From Solibacillus sp. FSL R7-0668 (lineage in GTDB: Bacteria > Bacillota > Bacilli > Bacillales_A > Planococcaceae), in contig NZ_JBBOUU010000001.1 of assembly GCF_038006205.1 (NCBI RefSeq), forward strand, positions 3,226,001-3,290,000: a DNA stretch of 64,000 bases, in the 5' to 3' direction. Position numbers and translations under genes: made by a program. Positions within the stretch are counted from its first letter, which is position 1. Every line of letters starts with the position of its first letter. Positions 53,915 through 60,742 of the stretch are shown piece after piece. The notes under the pieces are model-generated. The model was not told the DNA's origin. It worked only from the letters and a program-made list of their open reading frames with translations, and did not search any database.

Positions 53915-53955
53915 AAAGGGAATGTCCCAGAAATTCTTCTCGGACATTCCCTTTT
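53915..53955. terminator. Bidirectional terminator after the yhzD-like gene
   Basis: Stem AAAGGGAATGTCC/GGACATTCCCTTT with loop CAGAAATTCTTCTC; the core also recurs at 55.87 kb. Confidence 0.85.
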
Positions 53956-55123
53956 ATACTAATCGCACAATCATTTCATAAAGCTCTTGATTCGTTGGTA
54001 CTTGCAAATACATGCGCTGACGTACAATACGATCTAATTCCTTTTCAATCATTTCACGCGCGAATGCTTCTCGATTATCCGAAGCAAACATATTCCGCAA
54101 TTCTTGCCGCATATTATAAATTTCATTAAAATCATTTAGTACTTGCTGCAGCTCTCGTTCATTCAGTAAATATTGCTGTGCTAAATCAACAAGTGCTTCA
54201 TTAAATATTTCGAGCATGCATACGGCATCGTCTTTAATTATAAAGTCCAGTGCCTTTTTCACAAGCTTTGTCGTAACAACGCTCCCCAAAATAAGGCCAA
54301 TAATACCTCCAATTAAGCTAATGACGGCTGTACTTACACTAGGAATAGTAAAACCAATTCCCCCGCCAATAATGAAGCCTGCAATACTCCCTACCAAGCC
54401 TGTAGCTGTTTTCGAGACATGTTTAAATAACTGCGCCGGTGACAGATGGCCCTTTATCGTCTGTACGATATCTACGTTCGCCATCACATCCGTTACAATG
54501 GCATTGGTCACCATATTACCATTCGATAATGTAAAAGCTTTTTTTGTCGCAATGGAACTATATTTCGCTTTTTTCGTTGCGGAGCTGGCCATTTTTTGAA
54601 TGACCACTTTTTCACCGTTCTTTTGGATAGCCTCAACAATTTCCGCGTCTAATTCCATGTCATCGATAAAATCTACTAATTGAATTTGCTGTTTTATTAC
54701 TTGTTGGGCAAATAATTCACCATCAATCATTAAACCCGTAAAAACAGCATTCTCTACAGCCTCTGCTCGTTCTGCACCGTTCCATTTACTTTGGGCAAAC
54801 GATACGGCTGTACTCATGCCAATCGTTTCTTCAGTAAAATAAATACTTCCTTGTGCATCCATCGTTAAATGATGGACATTCCCCGCCTCTGCAATATGTC
54901 GCACCTGCTGATAGGTAAATGCACCTTGCTTTATATTATTCGTTTGATTAAAATGCGCTGAAATCTGTTCAAATTGTTCAAATGGTACTTCTAAATAGTT
55001 CATTTGCCCTTTATCTTGCTGCTTTAATTCCACTTCACAGATTGCAATCGTTTGTTCAACAGTTGGACAATAGACATTAAGCAATGCTTGTCGCTGTTTT
55101 TTAGAAAGCACTATTGGTTCCAC
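53954..55123 (-). CDS. Unrecognised 389-residue protein with a glycine-rich hydrophobic hairpin
   Basis: I do not recognise this family. The first 230 residues are soluble and mostly alpha-helical (KKQRQALLNVYCPTVEQTIA; MDAQGSIYFTEETIG). Residues about 248-298 form two glycine-rich hydrophobic helices (GLVGSIAGFIIGGGIGF and LIGGIIGLILGSVV), like glycine-zipper membrane-inserting segments. A charged helical tail follows. GTG start at 55123, seven bases after GGAGG, gives MEPIVLSKKQ. It lies between the yhzD-like gene and a long non-coding stretch, with no operon partner. Could be a membrane-damaging or envelope-stress protein; no evidence for either. Confidence 0.6.
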   Translation of the reverse strand: MEPIVLSKKQRQALLNVYCPTVEQTIAICEVELKQQDKGQMNYLEVPFEQFEQISAHFNQTNNIKQGAFTYQQVRHIAEAGNVHHLTMDAQGSIYFTEETIGMSTAVSFAQSKWNGAERAEAVENAVFTGLMIDGELFAQQVIKQQIQLVDFIDDMELDAEIVEAIQKNGEKVVIQKMASSATKKAKYSSIATKKAFTLSNGNMVTNAIVTDVMANVDIVQTIKGHLSPAQLFKHVSKTATGLVGSIAGFIIGGGIGFTIPSVSTAVISLIGGIIGLILGSVVTTKLVKKALDFIIKDDAVCMLEIFNEALVDLAQQYLLNERELQQVLNDFNEIYNMRQELRNMFASDNREAFAREMIEKELDRIVRQRMYLQVPTNQELYEMIVRLV

Positions 55124-55252
55124 GAAGCTACCTCCAGTTATTAAGTCCTCCATTATCATAATGGCAATGAGGGAGGTTGTACAGATTTTTATTTAACAAC
55201 ATTGAGCAAATTCACTAACAATAAATGGATTAAGTACAGTGTGCTTTCTTTT

Positions 55253-55461
55253 TTTGGCGGGCTACGGCAAAGTTAAAACCAATCGCAATCTGGATTGGTT
55301 TTAACTTCTGCGACGAAAGCGTTGTGACAGGAGCATGAACCCTGCTTCTGCGGGGAGTAAAATCGCGATTTCACTCTCCTCGGCGTAAAGAGAATTTCTA
55401 AAAAGTGTTTTAGAAATTCCCTTTACTACTGTCTTTAATGCCGCATGCAAGGCCCGCCAAA
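55253..55461 (-). other. Structured non-coding element: five hairpins enclosed by a 10-bp helix
   Basis: TTTGGCGGGC (55253-55262) pairs exactly with GCCCGCCAAA (55452-55461). Inside are a perfect 15-bp hairpin (AAGTTAAAACCAATC, 55270-55284, with 55293-55307), a GCGACG/CGTTGT stem near 55309-55324, CCCTGC/GCGGGG around a 4-base loop (55340-55355), a stem centred on the palindrome AAATCGCGATTT (55360-55371) and an 18-bp stem at 55386-55425 with one wobble. No ORF of 60 codons or more lies within. The rest of the 786-bp gene-free stretch (55124-55909) has two further inverted repeats (AAAATTATTG/CAATAATTTT and AATCATTTGT/ACAAATGATT) and no gene that I can see. Confidence 0.7.
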
Positions 55462-55862
55462 CTAAAATGTTGCGTTCAAATAAAATGAAAAGCGCTCAAT
55501 ACTACCGCTAGCGCTAACGCGAGGCGGCGGTGCTGGATAAAATATGGCGTTGTACCAATAGAGTGGCTTTGTTCAATGCTTAGCTCTTTGAATAAAATTA
55601 TTTACTATAATTGTGTTATGGTAAAACTTTTTTAGGTTAAAGTTGGTGATATTAAAATTATTGCGCTAGATTCACCAATAATTTTCGAAACATTCGCAAT
55701 ATAAACCAAACTTAGTTTTGTAGCAAAGTGACGCGAAATGAAGTAGGTGCCCTCTTGGGGATATCCAATCATTTGTACCGCCAATAATGCACAAATGATT
55801 TAGCAGATAAGCACTCTTAATTCCAATTTTTGCATTAAGAAATACTCTTTTTGAGTAACAAC

Positions 55863-55904
55863 AAAAAAGGAGCGTCCGAGAGTAATTTCTGGGACAGCTC
55901 CTTT
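55863..55904 (-). terminator. Terminator after the enoyl-CoA hydratase gene
   Basis: Stem GGAGC-GTCC/GGAC-GCTCC with one bulge, then TTTTTTG on the minus strand. Its 22-bp core is 20/22 identical to the terminator at 53.92 kb. Confidence 0.75.
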
Positions 55905-55909
55905 CCTAC

Positions 55910-56689
55910 TTATTGTCCGACAAATTGCGGGACACGCTTTGCTACAAATGCTTGGATGCCTTCTAAATGATCCTTCGTTTGACGCATTTTTACTTGTCCT
56001 TCTGATTCGCCTTGTAAAATTTGCTCCAGCGTACTTAAATTCGCATGATGCAAAATTCGCTTCGTTTCAATCATTGCTAAAATCGGTGCAGCTAATAACT
56101 TCCCTACAATTTGGTCTACCGCAACACTCGCTGTACCATCCGCTACATTGTAGTCAATTAAGCCAAGTGCTAATGCTTGTTCACCATCTAATACTTTCCC
56201 CTCCCAAATCATCTGTTTCGCCTTTACCGTACCCAGTCGCTCCTTCATGAAGAAATGGCCCGCTCCATCCGGAATTAAGCCAATTCCTATAAAGTTCATC
56301 GCCAGCTTACTTGACTGTTCGGCAACTATAAAATCGCTCCCTAATGCCAAGCTAAACCCTAATCCAGCCGAAGCACCATGTATTTGGGCAATCGTAATCA
56401 TCGGCAGCGTATAATAGGCCTTTACTAAACGTGCAATATCCTCCATCACCGTACCGAAATCCGAAAAATCATCTGATGCCAGCATCCTCTTTACATCGCC
56501 ACCAGCTGAAAAGACCTTTCCTTCCCCTTTAATAACAAGCACTTGGACAACCTTTTCGTGATGCAGCGCTTCAAAGCAATCTGCTAATTCGCGCATCATT
56601 GTAAAATCCATGGCATTCATTGCGCTTGGACGATTTAACGTCACTGTCGCTTTTCGCTCTGCTACTTCTAATTGAATTGTTTCATACAT
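55910..56689 (-). CDS. Enoyl-CoA hydratase/isomerase family protein
   Basis: 259 residues of the crotonase fold: KVFSAGGDVKRMLASDDFSD at about 58-77 (oxyanion hole), IHGASAGLGFSLALGSDF at about 102-119 and MNFIGIGLIPDGAGHFFMKE at about 130-149, where Asp replaces the second catalytic Glu of true hydratases (isomerase-like). A FadR-like palindrome lies about 20 bp upstream. It follows the FAD dehydrogenase by 60 bp on the same strand. Confidence 0.88.
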   Translation of the reverse strand: MYETIQLEVAERKATVTLNRPSAMNAMDFTMMRELADCFEALHHEKVVQVLVIKGEGKVFSAGGDVKRMLASDDFSDFGTVMEDIARLVKAYYTLPMITIAQIHGASAGLGFSLALGSDFIVAEQSSKLAMNFIGIGLIPDGAGHFFMKERLGTVKAKQMIWEGKVLDGEQALALGLIDYNVADGTASVAVDQIVGKLLAAPILAMIETKRILHHANLSTLEQILQGESEGQVKMRQTKDHLEGIQAFVAKRVPQFVGQ

Positions 56690-58779: not shown

Positions 58780-59075
58780 AAATTTAATTACGACAAACTA
58801 TTGCGATAGAGACATGCTTTTCGTTTTGTATAGCAAAGAGAGCTGGTGGTTGGTGTAAACCAGTATATACGGCGATAAAGTTCCACTCTTGAATAGAATA
58901 ACTGAAATGTATTAGTAGGTTATTCCGTCCCATGCACGTTACGCATACGGATAAGGTTGTACGAGTATTTATCTGAATATTACGTCAACGAATAAGGGTG
59001 GTACCGCGATTCTGATATTTTTAGCCTTTCGCCCCTTACAGTGACATGTAAGGGACGGAAGGCTTTTTTATTTCA
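58780..59075 (+). ncRNA. T-box riboswitch (serine, specifier UCC) upstream of serA
   Basis: The antiterminator T-box sequence AAGGGTGGTACCGCG is exact at 58994-59008. Stem I shows the AG bulge and GGTG distal loop near 58839-58855, and the specifier segment AGTTCCACTCTTGA, where TCC (58882-58884) sits in the codon position. TCC is a serine codon, which fits serA. Uncharged tRNA-Ser would favour the antiterminator and let transcription continue into serA. The leader's exact start is estimated from the promoter. Confidence 0.92.
59023..59069 (+). terminator. T-box-controlled terminator before serA
   Basis: Stem AGCCTTTCG...CCTTAC with GTAAGG...CGGAAGGCT, then a T run. Confidence 0.9.
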
Positions 59076-59119: not shown

Positions 59120-60742
59120 ATGGCAACAAAAGTTATCGAACAAGCAACTAAAACAATTAACGTATTTATTGCGGATCCACTTAGTGAAGATGGAATTTTT
59201 CCATTACGTCAAGAAACAGAATTAGACTTAAATGTAATTATTGATACAGGTCTTGCACCAGAAGAGCTTATCGCAAAAATTGCTGACGTAGATGTACTAC
59301 TTGTTCGTTCTCAAACAACTGTTACACGCGAAGTAATCGAGGCAGCAAAAAACTTAAAATTAATCGGGCGTGCTGGTGTTGGTGTAGATAACATCGACTT
59401 AACTGCTGCAACAGAACACGGAATTATCGTTGTCAACGCACCAGATGGCAACACAAACTCTGCTGCTGAACATTCAATCGCAATGATGACATCTTTAGCA
59501 CGTCATATTCCACAAGCATTTAATACACTTAAAAACGGTAAATGGGATCGCAAATCTTTCGTTGGTGTGGAATTAAAAAATAAAACTTTAGGCGTTATTG
59601 GTATGGGCCGTATCGGTGCTGAAGTGGCATACCGTGCAAAAGGTCAACGTATGAACGTCATCGCTTATGACCCATTCTTAACAGAAGAACGCGCAAAAGA
59701 GCTTGGCGTAACAAAAGGAACAGTTGATGAAGTATGTGCAGCTGCTGAGTTCATCACAGTACACACACCATTACTACCAGAAACACGCAACATCATTAAT
59801 AAAGCGCGCTTTGCCATTATGAAAGACGGCGTTCGCATTATTAACTGTGCACGTGGTGGTATCATTAATGAAGATGATTTATATGACGCAATCGTAGAAG
59901 GTAAAGTAGCTGGTGCAGCACTAGACGTATTCGTACAAGAGCCAGCAACAGACCACAAATTACTAACACTTCCACAAGTAATTGCAACACCTCACTTAGG
60001 TGCATCTACAGTAGAAGCACAAGAATCAGTTGCAGTTGACGTTTCAAATGATATTATTAAATTCTTTAAAACAGGTACAGTTACAAACCCAGTAAACATG
60101 CCTTCAATTCCTAAAGAAAAGCTTGCACAAGTTGAGCCATTCTTTGCACTTGCTGAAAAGCTTGGTAAATTCTTAATCCAAGTAACAGAAGAGGGCATTC
60201 AACAATTAAATATTTCTTATGCAGGAGAAGTTGCTAACTTTGATGTTCGCCCATTAACTGCCAATGCAATTAAAGGATTACTTTCTACAAATCACGGCAC
60301 GCATGTAAATGATGTCAATGCACGTTATTTAGCAGAGCGCATTGGTATGCAAATTAACGAGCACAAAACAACTACTGCAAAAGGATTCACGAACTTAATT
60401 ACAGTGGAAATCATTACAGAAACAGAAAAACATACAGTTGCAGGTACGCTATTAAATGGTCTTGGCGCTCGCATTGTGAAAGTGGAAGGTTTCGTAGTAG
60501 ACGTTATTCCTGAAGGTCACCTACTATACATCAAAAACCAAGACAAGCCAGGTTCAATCGGCCGCGTAGCTACAAAATTAGCTGATAAAAACATTAATAT
60601 CGCGACAATGCAAGTAGGACGCGACCAAATTGGTGGTTCTGCAGTTATGATGCTTGCTGTTGATAATGAAGTAACAACTGAAGAATTAATCTATGTTGCA
60701 CAACTTGAAAATATTGATGAAGTAAAAGCCATTACTCTATAA
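59120..60742 (+). CDS. serA: D-3-phosphoglycerate dehydrogenase
   Basis: 540 residues. Substrate and NAD domain with [20 protein letters not shown] near 86-105, [18 protein letters not shown] near 157-174 (Rossmann loop) and [12 protein letters not shown] with the catalytic His region. After an intervening domain it ends in an ACT domain ([19 protein letters not shown] at about 466-484), which usually lets serine inhibit the enzyme. It makes phosphohydroxypyruvate from phosphoglycerate, feeding serC at 50-51 kb. Controlled by a serine T-box upstream. Confidence 0.97.

Follow-up and report, generated by a model that had tools for sequence, protein, structure and literature searches.

A multi-hairpin intergenic element of Solibacillus as a likely copy of a MITE-like repeat family with a putative RNA hairpin cargo

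The closest described systems are the BOX elements of streptococci, which are, like the elements studied here, small dispersed intergenic repeats built of swappable hairpin modules. According to the portions of PMC3049150 and PMC10969869 drawn on here, BOX elements consist of boxA-boxB-boxC modules (with boxE/boxF in S. suis) with predicted RNA folds, occupy convergent gaps and insert into one another, with transcription seen in several instances. The family described below shows the same modularity, with one socket holding differing interiors and one cassette occurring at several places. Its likeness to BOX is one of architecture, convergent gaps making up 15 of the 44 assigned gaps (raw count), and it differs from BOX in the strong covariation of one of its hairpins (H2), its several types of end, its tandem arrays, its presence in four genera and the 8-bp duplications of some copies. 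The folding of MITEs is commonly put down to their terminal repeats (see also PMC10969869, in part). In the present family, two internal hairpins surpass the adjoining sequence in conservation and occur together with varied ends, and one of them (H2) covaries and has a preferred strand. The family offers a good test case for the possible carriage of RNA genes by small transposons.

The window, i.e., the whole 64,000-nucleotide stretch of Solibacillus sp. FSL R7-0668 DNA that was analyzed, contains a 209-nt multi-hairpin fold for which an earlier note had offered two readings, a structured RNA not described before or a mobile repeat that folds. The fold itself was confirmed: the enclosing 10-bp helix (100% matched) and the perfect 15-bp hairpin are present, and the near-perfect long hairpin, put at 18 bp before, measures 19 nt with 95% complementarity (Table 1). 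Folded as RNA, the 211-nt sequence reaches –90.9 kcal/mol, against –52.6 ± 4.5 kcal/mol for 200 dinucleotide shuffles, none of which was as low (z of –8.46), and with DNA parameters it also falls far below the shuffles (z of –8.12). Both 10-bp inverted repeats reported downstream were found as well, the first of them overlapped by TTGGTGA (55643-55649) and TCACCAA (55672-55678). The gene-free gap around the fold indeed spans 786 bp when the neighboring 401-aa gene is started at its GTG codon, and 750 bp with its ATG start. This GTG is preceded by GGAGGT at 6 nt spacing, and the orthologues of the gene in relatives also begin at the matching GTG position (by eye). The evolutionary unit is longer than the 209-nt fold and runs from about 55202 to 55855. 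No ORF of at least 60 aa was found within 55202-55855, so that the window element holds no transposase gene.

Table 1. Features of the window element and its surroundings (positions in the window; an empty strand cell means that no strand is assigned).
Feature	Position	Strand	Remarks
Neighbor gene, 401 aa as called, no Pfam family	53954..55159	-	start probably GTG 55123
Left TAACAACA direct repeat (8 bp), putative target duplication	55194..55201		
MITE-like element, about 654 bp, between two minus-strand genes	55202..55855		ends set by TAACAACA repeat
H2 closing helix P1, 3′ arm in the proposed RNA orientation	55253..55262	-	
H2 helix P2, arm CGGCA	55265..55269	-	partner 55439-55443
Nested multi-hairpin insert in place of H2 tip, this subfamily	55270..55438		
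Cassette hairpin, 15-bp arms, 8-nt loop	55270..55307	+	arms 55270-55284/55293-55307; same geometry, other arm sequences elsewhere
26-nt cassette tail GCGACGAAAGCGTTGTGACAGGAGCA	55310..55335	+	two mismatches to common form
Further insert hairpin	55352..55379	+	MFE; 94% paired, 4 both-side pairs (long-type alignment)
19-bp insert hairpin, 95% complementary	55385..55426	+	arms 55385-55403/55408-55426; 91% paired, 4 both-side pairs
H2 helix P2, arm TGCCG	55439..55443	-	partner 55265-55269
J1, conserved one-sided bulge	55444..55451	-	CATGCAAG on plus strand, CTTGCATG in RNA orientation
H2 closing helix P1, 5′ arm in the proposed RNA orientation	55452..55461	-	
H1, G+C-rich hairpin, before H2 in the proposed RNA orientation	55505..55527	-	
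10-bp inverted repeat in A+T-rich linker of element	55654..55685		arms 55654-55663/55676-55685
10-bp inverted repeat, probably hairpin remnant of third conserved domain	55767..55800		arms 55767-55776/55791-55800; position matches hairpin of L058-type copies, by eye
Right copy of 8-bp direct repeat TAACAACA	55856..55863		
Neighbor gene, enoyl-CoA hydratase/isomerase (PF00378)	55910..56689	-	

Searching the window's own genome with 55200-55850 revealed six diverged loci (74–83% identity in the main matching parts), and element matches occurred in 10 of the 61 genomes searched, every one of them within Solibacillus; a distant-mode search of plasmid and phage records gave no match to the element. 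The gap between the hydratase gene and the 401-aa gene is 754 nt long here, compared to 88–180 nt in relatives. Both genes are adjacent in 11 of the 15 other genus genomes, and the element is absent from all 11; in the remaining G003, G005, G007 and G010, a homologue of the 401-aa gene was not found in the stretch examined. Because the gene pair stands without the element in relatives, the element is shown to be an insertion. With six copies in its own genome, empty orthologous sites, and the terminal repeats and 8-bp duplications of its relatives (see below), the window element is very probably a mobile repeat, as one of the two alternatives in the earlier note had it, and that note's provisos of a single genomic copy or a lack of conservation in relatives both fell away. 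The window would thereby contain a copy belonging to a genus-level family of non-autonomous, transposase-mobilized MITE-like elements, some copies of which have decayed (L044, L050 and L085). Among 57 copies, 15 lie in convergent, 22 in co-directional and 7 in divergent gaps, with one side unassigned for another 13 (raw counts), and no preference in flanking-gene orientation was apparent. After the empty-site comparison and this orientation count, a role as cis-regulator of the neighboring gene was dropped as a reading.

Elements of relatives have clear terminal inverted repeats with ends beginning GGYTCATCACCRTAA, and exact 8-bp duplications were seen in 4 of the 12 copies with a recognized right end (L076, L079, L080 and L083). 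A further copy (L074) matches at 7 of the 8 bases and another (L086) has no duplication, while the left end was unreadable in the rest of the 12. In the window's clade, an 8-bp repeat at a similar offset occurs in 7 of 24 copies (raw count; four exact, three with one mismatch), and the two ends match imperfectly over ~50 bp (by eye). The window's own TAACAACA pair, with its left-end offset shifted by ~6 nt compared to other copies, is suggestive only of a target duplication.

The ends of the relatives' elements (GGYTCATCACCRTAACATGGGG) resemble those of the genus's own ISL3 elements (GGTTCTANNTCAAATGTTGGGG), being similar and not the same, and the ends of the window's clade differ from the ISL3-like ends of the copies in other species; equality with the ends of a resident ISL3 element, the mark of an ISL3-derived MITE, was thus not found. 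At the ISL3 loci of the genus, a relaxed search recovered ends in five of six cases (with four exact duplications and one at 7 of 8 bases), while the motif search and the exact-duplication search in unrelaxed form found none, and no ends were recovered at the ISL3 locus of the window's own genome (L158). ISL3-like MITEs and the present family have in common terminal inverted repeats (clear in relatives), A+T-rich 8-bp duplications (in some copies of relatives), an intergenic position and, in the window copy, the lack of ORFs of 60 aa. They are set apart by the differing ends of the window's clade and by the copy-rich genomes G002, G011 and G015, where no match to an ISL3 transposase was found, which weakens ISL3 as the present mobilizer.

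In short copies of the element, P1 encloses one 87-nt hairpin (H2) in place of the five stems, and a second G+C-rich hairpin (H1) lies ~40 nt beyond H2 on the plus strand. In pairwise comparisons of 29 short copies from three species, identity averages 93.6% for H2, 87.3% for H1 and 73.1% for the sequence between them, and 65.0% for the first 130 nt of the linker and 66.9% for the left flank. The far end of the element holds a third G+C-rich domain, which is again well conserved in the copies that have it, so that conservation is not unique to H1–H2. Its motif (AAGCGTGCGCGGAAAATCC...GTAGCGTAGCAGAACGGA) stands in the 3′ part of the element in L045, L051, L058 and others; the domain was lost in some copies and is no more than a remnant in the window copy, and its sequence is presumably akin to repeats that other Bacillales have in large numbers.

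Some matches had the look of a different hairpin and were set apart as class B. Once turned to the opposite strand, copies of class A, of class B and of a second genus share one alignment. This joint alignment (A5; 57 sequences from three classes and two genera) retained 57 of 68 proposed rows, with 8 class A, 1 second-genus and 2 class B rows omitted by eye (some of them decayed or of odd length); since class A candidates had moreover been limited beforehand to 85–88 nt, A5 favors well-formed copies. Its order is P1, a one-sided bulge (C-T-n-n-C-A), P2, an A-rich one-sided bulge, a helix of 13 bp and, at the tip, a hairpin that typically reads ACAYGTRCMACRTGGC, with H1 upstream. Within J1, T12 is invariant and C15 and A16 are each conserved in at least 90%.

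The earlier note had suggested covariation of the stems as a check. With the H2 structure drawn by hand from the A5 sequences themselves, which favors the percentage paired, 93.6% of the cells pair. Both-side changes occur in 25 of 33 pairs, totaling 315 cells vs. 105.4 ± 8.0 in shuffled and 17–59 in slid alignments (and a covariation score of 0.476 vs. 0.185), where the shuffles do not keep relatedness and the cells are not independent events. P1 in relatives has a both-side change in 9 of 9 pairs, and RNAalifold on A5 returned only 22 pairs, of which 17 have changed on both sides, and omitted P2. Covariation beyond shuffles was likewise found in an earlier set of 34 sequences (A1, out of 59 loci compared, from which covariance model R1 derives) and in 105 distinct sequences. 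A second covariance model (R2), built from the hand-drawn A5 structure, yielded a check set of 11 matches at ten loci, 9 of the 11 from genomes without a training row. With the caveat that these were aligned to R2 itself, so that the alignment leans toward the model, 95.2% of the check set is paired, 19 of 33 pairs have both-side changes, and these total 41 cells vs. 11.6 ± 2.6. An H1-like GCGGCCTACCACTGTAAGCCGC or a relative of it precedes H2 by ~30–45 nt in 9 of the 11 later matches, being missing in L339 and decayed in L341, so that H1 has a counterpart 5′ of H2 in other genera as well (all by eye). Covariation is, in sum, strong for the relatives' H2 and weaker for the window's insert (see below), and it is quite likely that the H2 of the family is selected as a folded strand. 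Its stem sequence has changed many times with pairing kept.

R1 matches were found in 15 of the 16 genus genomes, with weaker matches of class B in about half of these genomes. G011 holds 81 R1 matches (a few perhaps counted on both strands), many of those listed lying at about 0.27–0.82 Mb and 2.9–3.3 Mb of its 3.74-Mb contig. In wider searches, R1 matched 18 of 200 family genomes (two genera) and, among 299 class genomes, only the window's own. R2 matched 26 of 261 genomes (4 of 19 genera) of the family Caryophanaceae and, among 398 class genomes, the window's own genome plus one weak partial hit. These multi-genome searches used stricter filters and scored at most 14 (class) or 22 (family) candidates per genome for R1 and at most 11 (class) or 17 (family) for R2, so that copy numbers are lower bounds and negatives hold at those settings only. 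An R2 hit in G171 (32.7 bits, positions 23-71) was taken as chance.

The H1–H2 module is carried by elements with the ends of the window's clade and by elements with ISL3-like ends, and several copies in the second genus lie between ends reading GAGGCTGGGACA (by eye). It also stands at one fixed locus in five species, beside the end of a gene that we take to be an acyl-CoA ligase, and is present there in tandem in G001 and G006. G011 has tandem arrays of the module with units of about 249 bp (L129, L130, L131, L132 and L133); their P1 "socket" stays the same from unit to unit, and class A and class B take turns as the interior. Hairpin interiors likewise differ around 1100-1900 in L106-L110, which represent one orthologous locus in five species; by eye, L109 has the interior of one socket replaced by a GCGACGAAAGCG cassette and another hairpin inserted into a GGCGCC hairpin. 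At L073 and L075, the end of a transposase-like ORF (by eye) runs directly into a truncated H2, upstream of the core, and the same cut point occurs twice, as if an IS had interrupted the module.

The window copy keeps H1, P1, P2 and the first bulge, and carries ~150 nt of hairpins as a replacement of the tip, which produces the "five stems in one helix" originally described; short copies have a small hairpin at this place. The stack of nested hairpins that took the place of the H2 tip includes a widespread cassette, and hairpins nested within hairpins illustrate one way in which such folds grow. In an alignment of 13 long-type copies (the window's included; L059 is partly deleted), the insert interior has both-side changes in 14 of 74 pairs, totaling 22 cells vs. 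7.1 ± 1.9 in shuffles. Since a slide of +1 already gives 18 cells vs. the 22 unslid, the interior is weaker evidence of covariation. R2 run on 54900-56200 did not recognize the window's H2, the best hit scoring 11.2 bits (E of 0.057). This hit, at 55642-55679 on the minus strand, corresponds to the TTGGTGA/TCACCAA pair with CTAGCGCA at the place of J1, and is either chance or a second, decayed socket. It may be that the window copy has ceased to produce the standard RNA.

The 26-nt tail of the cassette is found in 15 of the 16 genus genomes and in 44 of 200 family genomes, which cover 8 of 19 genera including the window's own, while the tail pattern read backwards gave none among the matches listed. 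Eight tandem tails at 72-bp spacing occur at L192 (1500-2030) in G014, the one genome of the genus in which neither R1 nor R2 found a match. At L211, L212 and L214-L217, in another genus, the tail adjoins TTATCCAGTTTTCAAAGAACAA, which we assume to be rRNA operon spacer sequence from its looks.

Mismatches within H2 bear on the strand that folds. For class A, they were counted in 107 of the 122 R1 matches (94 distinct sequences; the 15 lowest-scoring matches were left out) and on the window plus strand amounted to 84 A.C vs. 21 G.U cells, with 30 of the 84 from one pair. Of the 94 sequences, 88 fold better as the minus strand, which on average also has the better fold with DNA parameters. Both observations led us to drop H2 as a plus-strand RNA. 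Read on the minus strand, the joint alignment has 100 G.U and 20 A.C cells, each of the three groups leaning the same way (55:11, 19:2 and 26:7), and the eleven later matches have 24 and 6, respectively. Because 43 of the 100 G.U cells come from a single pair, the size of this bias is less certain than its direction; distinct column types number 17 vs. 13. Taken together, these data suggest that the folded and used strand is the window minus strand, either as RNA or as single-stranded DNA.

Of these two forms, RNA is somewhat favored for the family's folded strand. H1–H2 is proposed to act as an RNA from the minus strand on two grounds: read on that strand, the mismatches that H2 tolerates are G.U, and its apical hairpin and one-sided bulges are conserved while its stems vary. 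Free stems with a fixed apical hairpin and fixed bulges point to a protein-binding hairpin, of which the latter two would likely be the binding surfaces. Minus-strand promoter-like sites lie upstream of H1 at 55726-55698 and 55625-55597 (weak), and the region contains 5 promoter-like sites vs. 2.0 ± 1.2 in shuffles. A simple promoter pattern upstream of H1 was not common to the 28 copies examined, and terminator-like sites were absent from 55130-55930.

Integron attC sites and the ends of IS200/IS605 elements work as folded single-stranded DNA, and the hairpins could similarly be recombination or transposition sites at which a protein reads the bottom strand, with covariation as the outcome. 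A single-stranded DNA hairpin would likewise favor G.T over A.C, so the wobble bias fits one DNA strand equally well, in keeping with the better minus-strand folding under DNA parameters. Furthermore, the arrays with their constant P1 socket and alternating class A/B interiors look like hairpin exchange, and H2 arrays resemble attC arrays in hairpin length, in their tandem imperfect hairpins, in their one-sided bulges and in the preference for one strand. However, the array units are similar repeats, unlike integron cassettes, which are different genes, and the readable ends consist of terminal inverted repeats with 8-bp duplications, the signature of a DDE transposase acting on double strands. 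We consider such DNA sites an unlikely explanation.

It is quite improbable, in turn, that the hairpins have no function and that covariation arose from mutation alone, with template switching perfecting quasi-palindromes and gene conversion homogenizing copies. Palindromes are indeed common in these repeats, some copies are decayed, and the cassette hairpins have perfect or near-perfect arms whose sequences are unrelated, all as such a mutational process would have it. Yet correction of this kind should remove one-sided bulges and lasting mismatches, whereas all three classes of A5 retain J1 and the bulge that follows P2, and the mismatches lean toward G.U on one strand. Finally, although the very stable 209-nt fold lies just upstream of the promoter-like TGTACA-17-TATGAT of the 401-aa gene, its being a functional RNA of its own locus (e.g., a leader of that gene) is extremely improbable, as the 11 of 11 relatives with the gene pair lack it and other copies sit between genes in all orientations.

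The explanation that we retain is that the window holds a copy of a MITE-like family in which H1–H2 is probably a minus-strand RNA cargo, spread by several small transposons. With at least three kinds of end, tandem arrays and a fixed locus, H1–H2 is best seen as RNA cargo. The more specific reading, i.e., that it represents an undescribed Caryophanaceae non-coding RNA that is MITE-borne, array-amplified and tip-exchanging, an RNA gene hitch-hiking on small transposons, is put forward tentatively and at somewhat less than an even chance; such an RNA would span four genera or more, reach up to tens of copies in a genome and have at least three different-looking kinds of MITE end. The proposal of an undescribed structured RNA thereby stands in part. 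It gains from the family's H2, with its covariation, G.U strand bias and lack of an Rfam match, and it loses for the 209-nt fold as such, in which the insert interior is confined to the subfamily and covaries more weakly and in which R2 misses H2.

H2 shares with Rfam RNAs the form of a compact stem-loop that covaries and whose bulges and apical hairpin are conserved. At gathering score, Rfam 15 placed no family on the window element, relaxed searches that took in the element plus six loci came nowhere near that score, and the literature, covered in part and judged by title and start of abstract, held no description of this repeat or RNA. Nine loci of relatives were equally free of Rfam families at gathering score except for a Bacillaceae-1 RNA elsewhere in L334 of genome G010, at 1050-1116 on the minus strand and ~390 nt from the H2 copy. 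Further along the window, a T-box leader was recognized at gathering score at 58794-59039 on the plus strand, directly before a gene at 59120 that, judged by its sequence, is presumably a D-3-phosphoglycerate dehydrogenase.
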